From Halopseudomonas sabulinigri (GTDB lineage: Bacteria > Pseudomonadota > Gammaproteobacteria > Pseudomonadales > Pseudomonadaceae), in the NCBI RefSeq assembly GCF_900105255.1, contig NZ_LT629763.1, positions 1,984,001 to 2,048,000 of the forward strand: a stretch of 64,000 bases of DNA, given 5' to 3'. How positions within the stretch are numbered: the first letter of the stretch is position 1; the number at the start of each line of letters is the position of its first letter. Below, piece after piece: positions 16,429 to 23,500 of this stretch. The position numbers were made by a program, and so were the translations under genes. The notes under the pieces were generated by a model that saw only the letters and a program-made list of their open reading frames with translations, did not search any database and was not told the origin of the DNA.

Positions 16429-18378
16429 TCAGCCAGCCCCTTCGTCCCTGCCCAAGAGCATGGCGACCTTGCCCAGCAACTCGGCGGTACTGAAAGGCTT
16501 GAGCATGATGTCCATGCCGGGCTCGGTGAATTTCACCCGGTTCTTGGCGCTTTCGGCATAGCCCGTCATGAAAAGAACCGGCAGCTCGGGCCGTGCGGCG
16601 CGCGCGTGCTTGGCCAACTCCTTGCCGTTCATGCGCGGCAGGCCAATATCGGTCAGCAGCAAATCAATGGACGGATCGGCCTGGAGTACTTCCAGCGCGC
16701 TTTCAGCGCTCTCGGCAGTAGAGCATCGATAGCCGGCATCCAGCAGGGTCTCGCGCAGCACCACGCTGACGGCGGCTATATCGTCCACGATCAACACATG
16801 TGCTGCGGTAGCGGCCACAGCACGGGGCGTATCGGCCACTACCTCTTCCGACAGCGTCTCGCCCGCCGGTAACCACAGCGTCACTTCGGTAAAGCGTCCG
16901 AGCTCACTGCGCATGCGCGCAATACCGCCCGACTGCCCAGCAAAGCCATACAGCATGGACAGACCCAGCCCGGTCCCCTTGCCGGTTGGCTTGGTGGTAA
17001 AGAAAGGATCGAACACCTTATCCAACACCTCCGGCGCCACGCCGGTGCCGTTGTCTCGCACGCGCGCCGCGACGTAGCGTCCATCGGTCAGTTCAGCATC
17101 GCCGCTCACATCCAGCAACTGGGTGCTGATACGGATCTCGCCACCCTCGGGCAGGGCGTCCCGGGCGTTAATCACCAGGTTGATCAGCGCACTTTCCAGC
17201 TGACTGGCATCAACGTGGGCAATGGCTGGCACCGGCGAAAGATCCAGCACCAGGCTGACATTCTCGCCCACCGAGCGACGGATAAAATCCTCCAGCGAAA
17301 CAACCAGCGCGTTAAGATCGACCGAACTGGCAGCAAGCGGCTGCTGCCGAGCAAAGGCAAGCAGGCGGTGTGTCAGCGCCGAGCCAGTCTTGGCCGACTG
17401 CAACGCGCCTTCGGCATAGCGTTGAATCTGCTCGTATTTACCGCTGTTTACGCGCTCGATGACCAGCTCGAGGCTCATCATCACACTGGTCAGAAGATTG
17501 TTGAAATCGTGGGCTATGCCGCCGGTCAGCTTGCCCAACGAATCCATCTTGCTGGCCTGCAGCAGCTGAGCCTCAGTGCGCTGACGCTCTTGGACTTCAG
17601 CTCGCAACTGCTGACTGACAGTGGCCAGCAACTCTTCCTGGCTGCGCTGTTTGTGCAGCCGCTCGGTGACATCCTCAATAAAAATGAACGACAGGTCGGG
17701 CGCCCGGTATGGCGCGACCTGCCACTGGGTAGTGCGATCCGATTCCTCACCCAGCATGGACAGCAAGCCACTCCAGCGACCACGGTTGCGAATCACTTCG
17801 CGCACAATATCCAGGGTAGCATCTTGATCTTTCACCATGCAGTCGTCCAACTCGTCGCCCGTGCAATCAAGGGCAAGTCGGGTGAAAGCCTGGTTTCGGT
17901 TATGAATATTGAGGGAGGAATCCACCACCACAATGGGCGCGGAGATGTTTTCGAATATCTCGCGGAAATGCTCTTCCCGCTCCTTCAGCGCGGTTTCGGT
18001 ATCGCGTACCCGCAACAGGGTGCCCAAGGTGGCCAACAGCACATCGGGGTCTATCGGATGCACCAGATAGGCATCGGCGCCCGCATCCAGTCCGGAAATG
18101 ATATCGCGGGTATCAATGGAGGCGGCTGAAACATGGATCACGGGCAGCAACGCCGTGCGCGGAGCGGCGCGCAAACGCCGGGCGATATCAAAGCCGCTCA
18201 TATCAGGCAGATTGACATCCAGGATCACTGCATCCAGCCCGTTCGCCTCAATCAGTGCCAACCCATCCGCGCCATTACCCGCTTCGATCACACGGTAGCC
18301 GTGACTTTCCAGCCGTCTGCGCATGGCGTAACGCGTTGCTGCGTTATCGTCTACTATCAGCAGGTGTCGCTCACTCAT
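16429..18378 (-). CDS. Hybrid sensor kinase: receiver-PAS-HisKA-HATPase-receiver
   Basis: 649-residue soluble hybrid kinase and last gene of the stressosome operon. Domains: N-terminal receiver (4-120) with acceptor Asp54 in VILDVNLPDMSG; PAS-like region (about 135-245); coiled linker; HisKA with His290 in GGIAHDFNNLL; HATPase with NLVINARDA and GTGLGLSMLYG; C-terminal receiver with LLLTDIGLPRMNG and MLKPF. Oddity: the first receiver has LVHPID where the conserved switch lysine (KP) is normally found. There are no membrane segments and no DNA-binding output. ATG 18378 follows a GGGGAGG ribosome site by 6 bases and overlaps the upstream kinase stop by 8 bases, implying coupling. It likely receives phosphate or signal from that kinase. 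Confidence 0.9.
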   Translation of the reverse strand: MSERHLLIVDDNAATRYAMRRRLESHGYRVIEAGNGADGLALIEANGLDAVILDVNLPDMSGFDIARRLRAAPRTALLPVIHVSAASIDTRDIISGLDAGADAYLVHPIDPDVLLATLGTLLRVRDTETALKEREEHFREIFENISAPIVVVDSSLNIHNRNQAFTRLALDCTGDELDDCMVKDQDATLDIVREVIRNRGRWSGLLSMLGEESDRTTQWQVAPYRAPDLSFIFIEDVTERLHKQRSQEELLATVSQQLRAEVQERQRTEAQLLQASKMDSLGKLTGGIAHDFNNLLTSVMMSLELVIERVNSGKYEQIQRYAEGALQSAKTGSALTHRLLAFARQQPLAASSVDLNALVVSLEDFIRRSVGENVSLVLDLSPVPAIAHVDASQLESALINLVINARDALPEGGEIRISTQLLDVSGDAELTDGRYVAARVRDNGTGVAPEVLDKVFDPFFTTKPTGKGTGLGLSMLYGFAGQSGGIARMRSELGRFTEVTLWLPAGETLSEEVVADTPRAVAATAAHVLIVDDIAAVSVVLRETLLDAGYRCSTAESAESALEVLQADPSIDLLLTDIGLPRMNGKELAKHARAARPELPVLFMTGYAESAKNRVKFTEPGMDIMLKPFSTAELLGKVAMLLGRDEGAG

Positions 18379-19216
18379 CATCTTCCTCCCCGCTTGGCGA
18401 CACCGGCATGACAAGGTAGAAGGTCGAGCCCACCGTCGGATTGCTCTCTACCCCCACACTGCCACCCAGCAACTCCGCATAACGCTTGCACAGTGACAAG
18501 CCAAGGCCCGTGCCGCGAAGGCGCTTCTGCAACGGTGAGTCGATTTGCACAAAGTCCTCGAACAACTGCCCGTGCAGTTCTTCGGGAATGCCGATGCCCG
18601 TGTCACTCACGGCAAAGCGCACCTCGTTTTCACCCACCAACTGCGCTGACACGCGCACTTCACCACGGAGAGTAAATTTAAGGGCGTTGGAAATAAAATT
18701 GCGCAGAATCTGCGCCAGCTTCTTGTCATCGGTAAACAGCCTAGTGATGCCAACCGGTTCTTCAAACACCAGGTCTACCGACTCACTGTCGACAATCGGT
18801 CTGAATGTACCGCGCAGGGCAGCAAACAGGTCGAACATGTCGAACCAGCCTGGCGATATGGTAATCCGCCCCGCCTCGATCTTGGCCAGGTCGAGCAAGT
18901 CATTGACCATTTCGGTCAACTCCTGCGCCGAGGTTCTGACAAACACCACTTGCTTCTGCTGCTCATCATTGAGCGGGCCATCCAACTGATCTCTGAGCAA
19001 GCCGGTAATGCTCAATATAGAACCCAATGGCGTGCGAAACTCGTGGCTCATATACGACAGGAAGCGGCTCTTCAGCTCGGACGCCTGCTTGAGCTGAAGC
19101 GCCTGGGTATCCAACTCGGCGTAGAGCGCCAGCACGCCCTGGTTGGTTTCTTCAAGTTCCTGCCGCAGTGAGGCATTTTCTGCCTGCAGACGCATAAGTT
19201 CGGTTGATTCAGCCAT
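18371..19216 (-). CDS. Soluble sensor histidine kinase in stressosome operon
   Basis: 281-residue histidine kinase with an N-terminal leucine-rich coiled coil (about 5-48, ELMRLQAENASLRQELEE) instead of membrane segments. The HisKA box is SYMSHEFRTPLGS with His58; the HATPase has NFISNALKF (N box), DTGIGIP (G1), and GTGLGLSLCKRY (G2). It lacks any recognisable sensor domain, so its input is probably protein-protein. The start ATG 19216 overlaps the stop of the phosphatase gene by 8 bases; earlier in-frame codons are antisense noise. Position between the phosphatase and the hybrid kinase suggests it relays the stressosome state. That role is inference. Confidence 0.9.
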   Translation of the reverse strand: MAESTELMRLQAENASLRQELEETNQGVLALYAELDTQALQLKQASELKSRFLSYMSHEFRTPLGSILSITGLLRDQLDGPLNDEQQKQVVFVRTSAQELTEMVNDLLDLAKIEAGRITISPGWFDMFDLFAALRGTFRPIVDSESVDLVFEEPVGITRLFTDDKKLAQILRNFISNALKFTLRGEVRVSAQLVGENEVRFAVSDTGIGIPEELHGQLFEDFVQIDSPLQKRLRGTGLGLSLCKRYAELLGGSVGVESNPTVGSTFYLVMPVSPSGEEDDE

Positions 19217-20219
19217 GGGCCAACTCCAGATCGATAGCCATGATGGTGACATCATCCCGGCCGCGGCAAAAGTCCCGGTGCAGCACCGCGGTAATGGTCG
19301 CAGGGTGCTGCAAAAGCAGGCCGGGGTAATCATTGATGTCCCAACGTGTCTGCAGACCGTCGCTGTACATCAGCAGCAATTGTCCACTTGCCTCCGGGTA
19401 GACAAAGGTATTCATCTTGCGGAACTGACCACCGACGATGCCGGGATAGGACACCAACCCACGCGAGTTAACCGGCGACAGCAACCGCGCACCTATGTTG
19501 CCAATACCTGAGAACTGCAAATTGCCACTATCGCCTTCATATTGTGCGATGGCCGCCGCGCCACCCCGCGTACCAGTCATGCCCCGGTGCAGGGCAGCCA
19601 TCAGCGCATCAGGACTGTCGAATGGCCGCGCAGCGAAAATCTCGCGCCCCGCGCGCGCCGCCGCCTCTGCCTCTTCGCCATGGCCCAGCCCGTCAATCAC
19701 CAGCGCGCTCAGCTTCTTGCCACTCACGCTGAACTGCCAGGTATCGCCGCAAGCGGTTTCGCCCTTCAACGCATGCTGATTGATGCCAAAGCGCACGTCT
19801 TTGACCCCGGCAGGGCATACACGTGCCAGCACAACGGCACCACGTTCATCAGCAAAGACGTCCAGCAACTGTGACTGCCTGGAAATAGACCCCAAACCCT
19901 CACCCTGAGTGCCACCGGTCGAATAGCCATCGCGCAGGCAACGGTGGAGATCAAAGCCGGGGCCCCGGTCGATGGCGACCAGTTCAACACAATTGCCGCC
20001 AGGCAAAACCAATACTCGGCAATGCAACTCGCCGCCGCCGGCGTGCTTGCGAATATTGCTGGTGAGCTCGGTTGCTACCAGCGCGGCGCGGCCGGCGTCG
20101 TTTTGGTCAAAACCGGCCATCTCGGCCAGTTGTTTGGCACAACGCCGCGCCTGGCCGATCTGACTTTCCTCCTCAATCACGATGACGTCAGTGAGGCTTC
20201 CGCCAATGTTCAGCTCCAT
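19209..20219 (-). CDS. ATP-binding SpoIIE/PP2C-family phosphatase (RsbX-like, with N-terminal RsbT/RsbW-type ATPase)
   Basis: 336-residue fusion. Residues ~10-135 form a GHKL ATPase of RsbW/RsbT type (VATELTSNIRKHAGGGEL; AIDRGPGFD; GEGLGSISRQS). Residues ~145-330 form a PP2C-like phosphatase with the metal-binding aspartates CGDTW, VIDGLGHG, YSDGLQ, and GRDDVT. In Gram-positive stressosomes RsbX dephosphorylates RsbS and RsbR and resets the complex; by position after rsbRST this protein is the likely counterpart. Whether its ATPase half is a second kinase is open. The start ATG 20219 overlaps the rsbT stop by 10 bases. Confidence 0.88.
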   Translation of the reverse strand: MELNIGGSLTDVIVIEEESQIGQARRCAKQLAEMAGFDQNDAGRAALVATELTSNIRKHAGGGELHCRVLVLPGGNCVELVAIDRGPGFDLHRCLRDGYSTGGTQGEGLGSISRQSQLLDVFADERGAVVLARVCPAGVKDVRFGINQHALKGETACGDTWQFSVSGKKLSALVIDGLGHGEEAEAAARAGREIFAARPFDSPDALMAALHRGMTGTRGGAAAIAQYEGDSGNLQFSGIGNIGARLLSPVNSRGLVSYPGIVGGQFRKMNTFVYPEASGQLLLMYSDGLQTRWDINDYPGLLLQHPATITAVLHRDFCRGRDDVTIMAIDLELAHG

Positions 20220-20614
20220 TGGACGATCGAAATGCGCGTGCCTTCGCCCAATGCAGTCTCAATATCGAACTCATTGACCAGACGTTTGGAGCCGGTGAGC
20301 CCCAGGCCCAAACCGCTGCCCGAGGTCCAGCCGTCGGTCATCGCCAGGTCCATGTCGGCAATGCCTGGCCCTTGATCCGTAAACACCACGCGCAAGCCCT
20401 TGCGCATGCCTTCTTCCAGCACCTGCCAGGCCATATCGCCCCCGCCACCGTGTATAAGCGTATTACGTGCCAACTCACTGACGGCGGTAACCAGCTTGGT
20501 TTGTGCTACCAGCCGCAAGCCGCAATCCTGAGCCAGTTTGCGGCAAAGCTGACGCGCCATGACGATATCCTGCTCGGTACGGATGGGTTGGGTTCCTTCA
20601 TCCAGTATGTTCAT
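20210..20614 (-). CDS. rsbT: Stressosome serine/threonine kinase RsbT
   Basis: 134-residue GHKL-type protein kinase. It shows the RsbT N box AVSELARNTLIHGGGG, the G1 box TDQGPGIADMDLAMTDG and the G2 box GSGLGLGLTGSKRLV, and has no extra domains, as in Bacillus RsbT. On stress it phosphorylates RsbS and RsbR, leaves the stressosome and activates a partner; in Bacillus that partner is RsbU, which is absent here. It overlaps rsbS by 4 bases (ATGA) and the phosphatase gene by 10, indicating coupled translation. Confidence 0.93.
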   Translation of the reverse strand: MNILDEGTQPIRTEQDIVMARQLCRKLAQDCGLRLVAQTKLVTAVSELARNTLIHGGGGDMAWQVLEEGMRKGLRVVFTDQGPGIADMDLAMTDGWTSGSGLGLGLTGSKRLVNEFDIETALGEGTRISIVQWS

Positions 20615-20973
20615 TGCTGCTGCACTTTTGCGCGCAGCAACTGCATTCCACGGTCTACATCCATTGCGGTAGCTACACCTGGTAAATTCAATCCAAGCTC
20701 AACCAGCGTGATAGCGACTGCCGGCTGCATGCCCACCAACACCGTTTGCGCATCCATGATCTTGGATAGTCCTGAAATGTTGGCGATCATTCGCCCGATA
20801 AAAGAGTCGACGATTTCCAGCGCGGAAATATCGATAAGCACCCCACGCGCCGCTGTCTCACTGATACGCGTGGCCAGGTCTTCCTGCAGGGTAAGCGCCA
20901 ATTGGTCGTGCATCTCTACCTGAACGGTGACCAGCAGATACTCACCCATCCTCAGTATAGGAATACGCTCCAT
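20611..20973 (-). CDS. rsbS: Stressosome scaffold RsbS (STAS domain)
   Basis: 120-residue single STAS domain matching Bacillus RsbS over its length: IPILRMGEYLLVTVQ, ALTLQEDLATRISETAARGVLIDIS, GMQPAVAITLVELG. The phosphorylated serine (Bacillus Ser59, in IDSFIA) is conserved as Ser57 in IVDSFIGR. RsbS builds the icosahedral core with RsbR and sequesters RsbT until phosphorylated. The gene starts 2 bases after the rsbR stop codon and overlaps rsbT by 4 bases. Confidence 0.94.
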   Translation of the reverse strand: MERIPILRMGEYLLVTVQVEMHDQLALTLQEDLATRISETAARGVLIDISALEIVDSFIGRMIANISGLSKIMDAQTVLVGMQPAVAITLVELGLNLPGVATAMDVDRGMQLLRAKVQQQ

Positions 20974-20975
20974 GA

Positions 20976-21824
20976 TCAGCTCGCCTTGGTAACAGTCAGA
21001 TTTGCGCGCTTCAACGCCAGCGCAAAGGCATCGGCCAGATTGGCCTTGGTCACAATACCTTCCAGATCCAGCCCCAAATGCACAATGGTCTGAGCAATCT
21101 GCGGACGCACGCCGCTGATAATGCAGTCAGCGCCCATCAGGCGAATAGCCGTGACGGTTTTCAGCAGGTGCTGAGCAACCAGAGTGTCGACCGTCGGCAC
21201 GCCAGTGATGTCGATGATGGCGATTTCCGAACCGGTGTCCAGAATGCGCTGCAGCAGCGACTCCATCACCACCTGGGTACGCTGGGAGTCCAGGGTGCCA
21301 ATCATGGGCAGCGCCAGGATGCCGTCCCACAGCTTGACCACCGGCGTGGAGAGCTCCAACAACTCTTCCTGTTGGCGCTTGATAACGGATTCACGGGCCT
21401 TCTGGAAAGTGCTTGCGGTAAACAGGCCCATGGAGTCCAGCAGCTCTGACAGGCTAGTGATATTGGTCGTCAGGGTCACCGGATCCAGTTCTGCCTTGCG
21501 TTGCAGCACATCGAATACTGGCCGCTTCAGCGAGAAAATAAAGCTGGCCGTCTGCTGGGCGTCAAAGCCCTGTAGCGCGCGGCTGTGCGATAGCTTCTCA
21601 AGAAACTCACGTGTTTCACTCCAGCCGCTGGCGTTCCACTGGGTGCCGGCGTTCGCAGCGCCGTCAGCAAACAGGGCCAGAAATCCAGAGGTCTGTTTGC
21701 GCAACTCTTCTGGCCGCACCCCTCTGGAAGAACCACTCTCCTCAAGCCCCTCGATCCAGGCCGATTGAACTTCGGCTTGTTGCTTGAGCAGCGCATCGAT
21801 AGCACTTTTATCCAATTTTGACAT
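20976..21824 (-). CDS. rsbR: Stressosome sensor RsbR (RsbRD-type N-terminal domain + STAS)
   Basis: 282-residue sensor and first gene of the operon. Residues ~5-145 match the RsbRD_N type of sensor domain (LRKQTSGFLALFADG; SLKRPVFDVLQ), not an obvious haem globin. A helical linker (ESVIKRQQEELLELSTPVV) leads to a STAS domain (160-275) with IIDITGVPTVDTLVAQHLLK and GVRPQIAQTIVHLGLDLEG. The RsbT target threonine in VDT is kept (Thr214); the second Bacillus site (Thr171) appears as Ser180 in GTLDSQR. The signal sensed is unknown. ATG 21824 (MSKLDKSAID) was chosen because upstream in-frame codons are not family-like. Confidence 0.92.
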   Translation of the reverse strand: MSKLDKSAIDALLKQQAEVQSAWIEGLEESGSSRGVRPEELRKQTSGFLALFADGAANAGTQWNASGWSETREFLEKLSHSRALQGFDAQQTASFIFSLKRPVFDVLQRKAELDPVTLTTNITSLSELLDSMGLFTASTFQKARESVIKRQQEELLELSTPVVKLWDGILALPMIGTLDSQRTQVVMESLLQRILDTGSEIAIIDITGVPTVDTLVAQHLLKTVTAIRLMGADCIISGVRPQIAQTIVHLGLDLEGIVTKANLADAFALALKRANLTVTKAS

Positions 21825-22177: not shown

Positions 22178-23500
22178 ATGCGCTCAGTTAACCGACGCTT
22201 TCTGTACTCTCTCTGGCTAGCCCTCGTCTGTCTGCCCGGCAACGTCACCGCGCATCAGCTGGAGATTCACGGTTCCAACACCATCGGTGCCACACTGGCC
22301 CCCACCCTGATGACTGCCTTTCTGCAGCAACTGAGCGGGACCGCGGTCACGACCAAAGGCACCGGCACCGCCAACGAGACCGTGCTCAGCACCCTGCGCG
22401 ACGGCGAGCCGCTGTCGGTGCTGGTGGCCGCACACGGCACCAGCACCGGTTATGCCGCGCTGGCAGCCAACAAGGCTGATATCTGGGCCGCCTCACGCCG
22501 CGTCACCGATAAGGAAATCGCCGCCATGGCCAGCCGGGCCGACCTGGTCAGCGCCGCCAGCGAGCACGTTATAGTCATCGACGGTCTGGCGGTGCTGGTT
22601 CACCCGTCCAATCCGGTAAACCAGCTGAGCATCGACACCCTGGCGCGCATCTTTGCCGGCGAGATCAGCAACTGGAGCGCCCTTGGCGGGCCCGACCGCG
22701 CCATCCATCTCTACGCCCGCGACGACCAGTCAGGCACCTGGGATACCTTCAAGTCGCTGGTACTGGCCGGTAAGTACAGCCTGAGCGAGCAGGCAAAACG
22801 TTACGAGTCCAACGATCAACTGTCTGACGACGTCAGCGCCGATCCCGCGGGCATCGGCTTTGCCGGCTTTGCCTCGGTGCGCAACAGCAAACTGCTGGCG
22901 ATAGCCGACGGCAATGCCCCGGCGCTCAAACCCAACAAGCTCTCGGTAGCCACGGAAGACTACCCCCTGTCACGCCGTCTTTATCTGTACACCGCCGGCG
23001 CCAATACGCCGCCATTGGCGCAGGCCTTTATCGACTTTGCCCAAAGCCAGGCCGGCCAGGAACTGGCCGGCACCACCGGCTTCTTCGCGCAAACCCCGTT
23101 CGCCGTAGACCCGGTGTACGACGCCAGCGTGCCTGACACCTTCAAGCGCCTGACCGAGCACTATCAACGCCTCTCGGTCAACATTCGCTTCGCCGAAGGC
23201 CGCACCCGCCTGGATAACAAGGCACAACGGGACCTGCTGCGCATTCAGGATTACCTGCAGCAAAGCGGCAAAAGCGGACGCGACCTGATGCTGATCGGCT
23301 TTGCCGATCAACAAAACGACGAACTGCGCGCGCAGATGATCTCAGAGTTGCGCGCCTTATCGGTCAGCAAAGCGCTACGTGAGCTCGGCACCCAGGTACA
23401 GGGCCACACCGGTTACGGCCACTACATGCAGGTAGCGTCGGGCGGCGGCGACAGCGGTGAACAGCGCAATGGCCGCGTAGAGATTTGGGTGCAGCGCTAG
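22178..23500 (+). CDS. PstS-like phosphate-binding domain fused to OmpA-like C-terminal domain
   Basis: 440-residue exported protein. A signal peptide (1-25, cleavage near VTAHQ) is followed by a PstS-family periplasmic binding domain: LEIHGSNTIGATLAP, IAVLVHPSNP-like region VIDGLAVLVHPSNPVNQ, FAGEISNWSALGG, and ARDDQSGTWDTFKSLVL, which contains the phosphate-contacting Ser-Gly-Thr. The C-terminal ~120 residues form an OmpA/MotB-like domain (INIRF-like NIRFAEGRTRLDNKAQRDL; NGRVEIWVQ) expected to bind peptidoglycan. The fusion suggests a wall-anchored phosphate- or anion-binding protein, not a normal ABC partner; no pstCAB genes are nearby. The start ATG 22178 gives a good signal peptide. Confidence 0.88.
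   Translation: MRSVNRRFLYSLWLALVCLPGNVTAHQLEIHGSNTIGATLAPTLMTAFLQQLSGTAVTTKGTGTANETVLSTLRDGEPLSVLVAAHGTSTGYAALAANKADIWAASRRVTDKEIAAMASRADLVSAASEHVIVIDGLAVLVHPSNPVNQLSIDTLARIFAGEISNWSALGGPDRAIHLYARDDQSGTWDTFKSLVLAGKYSLSEQAKRYESNDQLSDDVSADPAGIGFAGFASVRNSKLLAIADGNAPALKPNKLSVATEDYPLSRRLYLYTAGANTPPLAQAFIDFAQSQAGQELAGTTGFFAQTPFAVDPVYDASVPDTFKRLTEHYQRLSVNIRFAEGRTRLDNKAQRDLLRIQDYLQQSGKSGRDLMLIGFADQQNDELRAQMISELRALSVSKALRELGTQVQGHTGYGHYMQVASGGGDSGEQRNGRVEIWVQR

Follow-up and report, generated by a model that had tools for sequence, protein, structure and literature searches.

A stressosome whose output is a two-component system is already published, so the principle is not new. In Vibrio vulnificus, a two-component pair lies downstream of an rsbRSTX cluster, and core mutants and kinase mutants were alike in phenotype, according to the accessible text of that report (PMC10014275). 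Heinz et al. (PMC9237108, in the sections available) distinguish eleven downstream architectures, phosphorelays included, for loci with a haem-globin RsbR and a single-domain RsbX. RsbT switches RsbU on by ordering its flexible linkers into a short coiled coil (PMC12143880, as excerpted), and how stressosomes talk to two-component systems without the RsbU_N domain is an open question. Here we describe a six-gene stressosome operon of Halopseudomonas sabulinigri that addresses this question with a candidate contact, a short helix in a histidine kinase. The operon lies in a 64,000-nucleotide window (contig NZ_LT629763.1, positions 1,984,001 to 2,048,000; coordinates below are those of the window) and runs head to tail on the minus strand from 21824 to 16429 in the order rsbR, rsbS, rsbT, T'X, K, H. 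K and H are histidine kinases, and T'X is named for its predicted halves, an N-terminal second RsbT-type ATPase (T') and an RsbX-like PP2C phosphatase (X). What is new is that all strong matches to the helix of K adjoin T'X in the samples searched. A preliminary description of this DNA had called a stressosome wired to a histidine phosphorelay poorly described in a pseudomonad. Two-component output has been published, with mutants, for a Gram-negative bacterium (available text of PMC10014275 and PMC9237108). In full-text search results and in the accessible text of PMC10014275, PMC9237108, PMC4976288, and PMC12143880, this operon was not seen mentioned for pseudomonads, nor were the helix or RsbT-kinase fusions.

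Kinase K (18371..19216, minus strand, 281 amino acids) is a soluble HisKA-HATPase_c protein (Pfam matches of 1.3e-18 and 3.7e-27). Its His58 was kept in 28/28 rows, where residue counts here and below cover the H. sabulinigri operon plus up to 32 aligned loci, rows without the gene being omitted. All six operon proteins scored over Pfam cut-offs; the same scan named no sensor domain in K and no RsbU_N in K or H. The conserved helix of K (residues 18 to 38; 19103..19165, minus strand) has the core ELEETNQGVLALYAEL at residues 20 to 35, with the consensus ELxxTNxGVxALYxEL, and runs straight into the first HisKA helix. A structural model with a mean predicted local distance difference test score (pLDDT) of 57, built from a two-row alignment and scoring about 60 at residues 31 to 40 and lower after, has an unbroken helix from residue 2 to 58. 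Seven positions (E20, T24, N25, G27, A30, L31, and E34) were invariant across 24 sequences drawn from three phyla (Pseudomonadota, Deinococcota, and Actinomycetota), and conservation was higher in the helix (0.90) than in the HisKA (0.80) and ATPase (0.81) domains of K.

In the H. sabulinigri genome, where 43 of 43 candidates were scored, K was the only match to the helix profile. In a 398-genome sample of the phylum, all 17 strong matches (E <1e-18) lay directly after T'X; here and in the order sample, at most 16 to 17 first-look candidates per genome were scored. Because T'X had been the route to the loci behind the profile, the linkage of these 17 matches is partly built in. More telling are the absence of strong matches elsewhere in the 398 genomes, two new genomes from the order, and a plasmid search with the H. 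sabulinigri helix alone. The order sample (371 genomes; 9 of the 14 matching genomes had already been seen) gave two new strong matches, both in complete operons (L180 and L181). With the single helix as the query, 23 plasmid records matched and a T'X-type gene adjoined in 23/23, with 17 of the 23 coming from Deinococcus, 15 from one species, and about nine species represented overall. Among weak matches, the one at a second place in genome G349 (8e-4) fell in an RsbT-like–kinase fusion beside another rsbR. This locus (L089, G349:C1:498000-512000) is a second one in a genome that has a full operon, and its rsbR is divergent from the fusion gene. Three weak matches from the order sample (L182 to L184; G1025 and G1043, about 3e-5; G950, 0.002) had no rsb genes in the stretch fetched, and the others in the phylum sample were in G135 (two, 0.005) and G375 (0.009). 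Stressosomes with a separate X gene were also considered as carriers of the helix, and it was not found in the six that were fetched with a kinase gene (L070, L074, L080, L081, L082, and L084), whose genomes likewise had no profile match. A single kinase encoded on an Embleya plasmid (L176, 3919-5685) carries two tandem copies of the helix.

Natural fusions connect this helix to RsbT-like domains. In 8 of the 17 phylum loci (L056 to L063), the protein also carries an RsbT-like domain in front of the helix, and the same fusion occurs in both new order genomes and on plasmids of Sphingomonas and Deinococcus radiodurans. The kinase-fused domain coexists with separate rsbT and T'X genes and, scored against the H. 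sabulinigri proteins, resembled RsbT more than T' (99 versus 42 bits in D. radiodurans, 88 versus 42 in Sphingomonas). Of 74 ATPase domains placed in a tree, 13 were kinase-fused, and these formed one group (90/97) outside the T' group (99/95; 26 of the 28 T' rows). The catalytic part after the helix varies and can be a HisKA kinase, an H-type kinase with an AHDFNN box and a REC domain (L058, L060, and L092), or a GAF-PP2C. The last was seen on a Streptomyces plasmid (L096), where the helix precedes GAF-PP2C and not a kinase, and where a worn remnant of the fused ATPase could be made out by eye. In G171 (by likeness) and on a Phaeobacter plasmid (by Pfam), the RsbT-like domain is carried instead by an HWE/HisKA_2-type kinase. 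The latter, from Phaeobacter piscinae (L095), has rsbR-S-T-T'X followed by this fusion, with the helix absent; Phaeobacter accounts for 58 of the 99 plasmid records with a T'X match, of which one record was inspected.

The preliminary description had proposed that RsbT or the ATPase half of T'X acts on the kinase pair. The natural fusions support an RsbT-type ATPase, either RsbT or T', as the agent and name the helix as its likely contact. We read the helix as a putative docking and transmission element for RsbT-type proteins, because the linker of RsbU, which RsbT orders into a coiled coil (PMC12143880, as excerpted), is an analogue. A bolder proposal, to which we would give slightly less than even odds, is that this stressosome-specific helix is a hitherto undescribed RsbT-reading module, that an ancestral RsbT-like–helix unit was successively fused with HisKA kinases, H-type kinases, and GAF-PP2C, and that the ATPase part was lost in the H. 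sabulinigri lineage, where free RsbT would dock in trans; Pseudomonadota, Deinococcota, and Actinomycetota would then share one operon type of this kind.

The scheme we favor, with a probability of roughly 0.55 as a whole, is that RsbT freed from the stressosome docks on the helix of K and switches the kinase, that the signal is relayed via H, and that T'X resets the system. RsbR and RsbS would form the stressosome that holds RsbT. When a signal reaches the globin-like, probably haem-free RsbRD_N sensor, RsbT would phosphorylate RsbS Ser57 and RsbR and be let go. Free RsbT would then bind the N-terminal helix of K and switch its autokinase activity, as RsbT does on the RsbU linker. Phosphate from K would pass to the N-terminal receiver of H and drive or gate the H kinase and second receiver, with the last relay step made elsewhere in the cell, while T'X would remove phosphate from RsbR and RsbS and its ATPase half may add a counter-kinase. 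What was observed is the gene content, the residues, the co-inheritance, the association of helix and T'X in the samples searched, and the natural fusions; all binding and phosphotransfer events are inferred, as are the direction of the effect on K, the nature of the signal, and the target at the end.

Several results weigh against docking of free RsbT. In V. vulnificus, RsbT and the downstream kinase VvD1 gave no positive interaction (available text of PMC9237108). Three of the 20 best T'X loci had no helix. The helix accompanies T'X loci and was not found in the six separate-X kinase loci fetched, a pattern that docking on T' would explain as well as docking on T. Nor does the ATPase tree assign the kinase-fused domains securely to T over T' (split 72/85). 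Finally, the helix stays when the fused domain does not: the H. sabulinigri operon type has no fused ATPase, the fused domain is weak or partial and below the Pfam threshold in L057, L176, and L178, and no RsbT match precedes the helix in L175 and L096. The candidate contact is short enough for every residue to be mutated singly, and the naturally fused relatives, including one in D. radiodurans, give ready test proteins.

The closest competitor gives the role of kinase partner to T'. T'X (19209..20219, minus strand, 336 amino acids) matched HATPase_c_2 (1.2e-6) and SpoIIE (1e-6) in Pfam. The best solved match of its PP2C half was 3zt9 (7.4e-13), which we take to be Moorella RsbX, and Bacillus RsbX (3w40) matched at 6.5e-9. 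The ATPase residues E51, N55, and D84 and the PP2C residues D176, D287, and D322 were kept in 33/33 rows, so that T' looks active as judged from its ATP site. The ATPase-PP2C fusion of the preliminary description joins T' to an RsbX-like phosphatase and more likely resets the stressosome than serves as an output; it lies directly 3' of rsbT and is fused to an ATPase, unlike the single-domain X described in the accessible part of PMC9237108. If T' and not RsbT were the partner of the helix, T'X would be both reset phosphatase and kinase regulator. This would account for the presence of the helix with 17 of the 20 best T'X loci and its apparent absence from separate-X loci with a kinase gene, for the strict conservation of the T' ATP site, and for X-K distances that correlate at r 0.96 versus 0.91 for T-K, a difference that is small and uncontrolled for protein length. 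However, the kinase-fused ATPase is RsbT-like by score, lies outside the T' clade, and occurs in loci that have T and T'X as genes of their own, and we consider T' a serious but less likely partner, at about one chance in five.

Other arrangements of these domains were also seen. In three loci (L075, L079, and L090), rsbR is accompanied by one RsbT-RsbX fusion, in which the switch kinase is joined to the reset phosphatase, and rsbT was not found as a gene of its own. Two others (L070 and L074) combine rsbT with another rsbT-like gene and a free-standing PP2C gene, which may be T'X in unfused form; their second rsbT-like genes do not group with T' in the ATPase tree. On plasmid pMP1 of D. radiodurans BND-54 (L179, 2904-3958), T'X is annotated as two overlapping frames, and it is one frame in strain R1 (L094).

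Upstream of T'X, the core genes encode RsbR (20976..21824, minus strand, 282 amino acids; RsbRD_N, 1.4e-20, and STAS, 4e-14), the scaffold and antagonist RsbS (20611..20973, minus strand, 120 amino acids; STAS, 3.2e-8), and the GHKL switch kinase RsbT (20210..20614, minus strand, 134 amino acids; HATPase_c, 9.4e-11). The operon RsbR and RsbS matched a solved RsbR at 1.4e-33 and the RsbS of a solved stressosome at 3.2e-33. The six genes had been described as overlapping, and all six are indeed on the minus strand; rsbR and rsbS are separated by a 2-base gap (20974-20975), and the remaining four junctions, from rsbS/rsbT to K/H, overlap by 4, 10, 8, and 11 bases. A promoter scan of the operon found 1 promoter-like site versus a mean of 2.2 in shuffles, which is nothing usable. 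Key residues were where they had been reported: the RsbS Ser57 column has S in 30 of 32 rows and T in 2, the RsbR Thr214 column has T in 31 of 33 rows and S in 2, and E47, N51, and D80 of RsbT were kept in 32/32 rows. The earlier idea that RsbR Ser180 replaces a second Thr was not borne out. Since this column has S in 33/33 rows, and Ser also occupies the aligned site in the solved V. vulnificus RsbR, Ser180 is the rule and own site of this RsbR class, not a loss or local replacement. By gene content these proteins are predicted to make up an RsbRST module, with an RsbR that has sensor and STAS domains, an RsbS with a phosphorylatable Ser, and an RsbT with an intact ATP site.

The RsbRD_N half of RsbR was all-helical in a moderate model (pLDDT 71) that resembled globin-type sensors, including stressosome entry 3zta (Z 14.8, 139 residues, 3.3 Å), and the N-terminal domain of B. 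subtilis RsbR, 2bnl (Z 12.8), where Z scores near 13 for helical bundles may stem from a widely shared packing of helices. The resemblance extended equally to globin sensors with and without haem, and the Pfam scan of RsbR named RsbRD_N and no globin family. Haem sensing as in V. vulnificus was considered and judged unlikely because no column of the N-terminal part has His in more than 45% of 22 sequences; the sole His there in H. sabulinigri RsbR is H80.

In Bacillus, released RsbT activates RsbU and then a sigma-B cascade, and the finding of a sigma or anti-sigma target of RsbT elsewhere in the genome had been set beforehand as evidence against a kinase output. No sigma-B cascade was found. 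In the H. sabulinigri genome (4.03 Mb, one contig, 99.99% complete), no RsbU_N scored over the cut-off, and there was one sub-threshold match (E 0.195). HATPase_c_2 matched in 23 places, among which RsbT was the only RsbW-sized frame; the six over the cut-off were T, T'X, a 570-amino-acid REC-PP2C-HATPase protein that we assume to be HsbR-like, and three frames of 400 to 481 amino acids. STAS domains occurred in seven places (R, S, an HsbA-like protein, one beside a REC-PP2C gene, and three others). Sigma-70 region 2 matched in 13 places (RpoD, RpoS, RpoH, FliA, RpoE, SigX, FecI-like, and other extracytoplasmic function factors). None of these reached the SigB/F/G cut-off (234 bits; best score shown, 133), and a sigma factor of this type was rejected as the RsbT target. 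The operon is thus not predicted to belong to a SigB general stress response with RsbU_N-PP2C, RsbW, and SigB. The claim that RsbU, RsbV/W, and a sigma cascade are lacking held for RsbU_N, for RsbW-sized proteins other than RsbT, and for SigB-type factors; RsbV-like STAS proteins are present elsewhere in the genome. Most likely, the stressosome signal goes to the histidine kinase pair rather than to a sigma factor.

Both kinase genes sit directly downstream of T'X. H (16429..18381, minus strand, 650 amino acids) is a hybrid kinase with the order REC1 (Asp55)-PAS-HisKA (His291)-HATPase_c-REC2 (Asp578), in which Pfam named two REC, PAS_4, HisKA, and HATPase_c and no DNA-binding, GGDEF, EAL, or cyclic di-GMP domain. 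The last operon gene of one relative (L065) encodes a REC-GerE (LuxR-type) regulator, so that in this case at least the pathway would end in transcription. The H. sabulinigri genome has 12 HPt matches, only one of them in an HPt-sized frame, beside an HsbR/HsbA-like pair. This locus (L138, G000:C1:1457500-1464500), with genes for HPt, REC-PP2C-HATPase, and STAS proteins, is presumably akin to HptB/HsbR/HsbA, and its HPt-sized protein is a possible acceptor for REC2 of H.

The PAS domain of H could also mean that the kinases are an input, K and H sensing a second signal and modifying the stressosome or T'X while the output lies elsewhere, for example, in other PP2C/STAS modules. RsbT targets of this kind could be two REC-PP2C genes that both have a STAS gene next to them, or a HAMP-PP2C protein whose Cache match is sub-threshold, and the authors of the V. 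vulnificus work name the PAS domain of VvD1 as a further entry point (available text of PMC9237108). We regard this as improbable: no RsbU_N was over the cut-off in the genome and none was reported in those PP2C proteins, no sensor domain was found in K by Pfam, an output module better fits a helix that precedes differing catalytic parts by lineage (two kinase types and GAF-PP2C), and one relative has the operon ending in REC-GerE. Less probable still is that RsbT transiently phosphorylates K on Ser/Thr without lasting docking, as was suggested for V. vulnificus downstream kinases lacking RsbU_N (accessible part of PMC9237108), which would leave the strict conservation of a noncatalytic helix, with one Ser/Thr only among its seven invariant positions, and its RsbT-like fusions unexplained.

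T'X relatives were found in 7 of 58 nearby genomes (H. sabulinigri itself and 6 of 36 congeners; 0 of 21 from other families), in 44 of 398 genomes of the phylum sample and 26 of 369 of the class sample (H. sabulinigri included in both; the class figure counts T'X matches alone, neighborhoods not being followed), and in 99 plasmid records (30 listed). Loci were fetched from 39 of the 43 other phylum genomes (not G132, G136, G160, or G346). Among the 20 best-scoring genomes, own included, rsbR, rsbS, and rsbT accompanied T'X in 19 (not G274), and a helix-bearing kinase followed it in 17 (not G171, G101, or G274). A second REC-kinase gene was present in 15 of these 17 loci (not L058 or L060), and S, T, X, K, and H distances correlated at r 0.91 to 0.97 over 16 loci (17 were listed, and L021 was dropped because its H is cut by a contig end). 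Kinase and hybrid are thus conserved with the rsb core, as the preliminary description had required, and, given these correlations, the operon is inherited as a unit whose gene set travels together.

The unit has probably moved. The same six genes occur on a plasmid of Xanthomonas vasicola, and over 118 residues the STAS part of its RsbR shares 96% identity with that of H. sabulinigri. Flanks mostly differ among the congeners fetched; therefore, the operon has likely passed between lineages. A single ancestral position in the genus was considered and rejected, the operon being patchy in congeners with mostly different flanks. Of five flank proteins, only the PBP-OmpA neighbor was found beside relatives (in full in L016 and as a 62-residue piece in L017, among 16 loci with fetched flanks of a few kilobases), and L016 and L018 have neighbors in common. 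This divergent neighbor (22178-23500) joins a PBP-superfamily domain to an OmpA domain, and one congener retains it next to the operon (L016, 74% identity).

Compared with described systems, the H. sabulinigri operon shares with B. subtilis RsbRST-RsbU-RsbVW-SigB the RsbR/S/T core, its phosphorylation sites, and an RsbX-type reset enzyme, and differs in that no RsbU_N over the cut-off, RsbW-sized protein apart from RsbT, or SigB-type factor was found in the genome. With the V. vulnificus rsbRSTX-VvD1/VvD2 locus it has in common an RST-X core with a two-component pair behind it, the lack of SigB, and Ser at the first RsbR site (PMC10014275 and PMC9237108, available text). There, however, RsbR carries a haem-binding globin sensor, RsbX is a single domain, and the output is thought to be cyclic di-GMP turnover (same sources and extent), whereas H. 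sabulinigri has RsbRD_N without a conserved His, the T'X fusion, a helix-bearing kinase, and a two-REC hybrid without GGDEF or EAL in the Pfam scan. The Moorella thermoacetica stressosome, which controls a diguanylate cyclase, is alike in that the enzyme targeted by RsbT is not a PP2C, with the difference that its contact is an RsbU_N domain (PMC4976288 and PMC12143880, as excerpted), none of which was found in K. Also comparable are the RsbU_N histidine kinases of stressosome operons, where the kinase is the RsbT target via an N-terminal dimer and linker (accessible text of PMC12143880 and PMC9237108); K instead has the bare helix only, and its relatives carry an RsbT-like ATPase before that helix.

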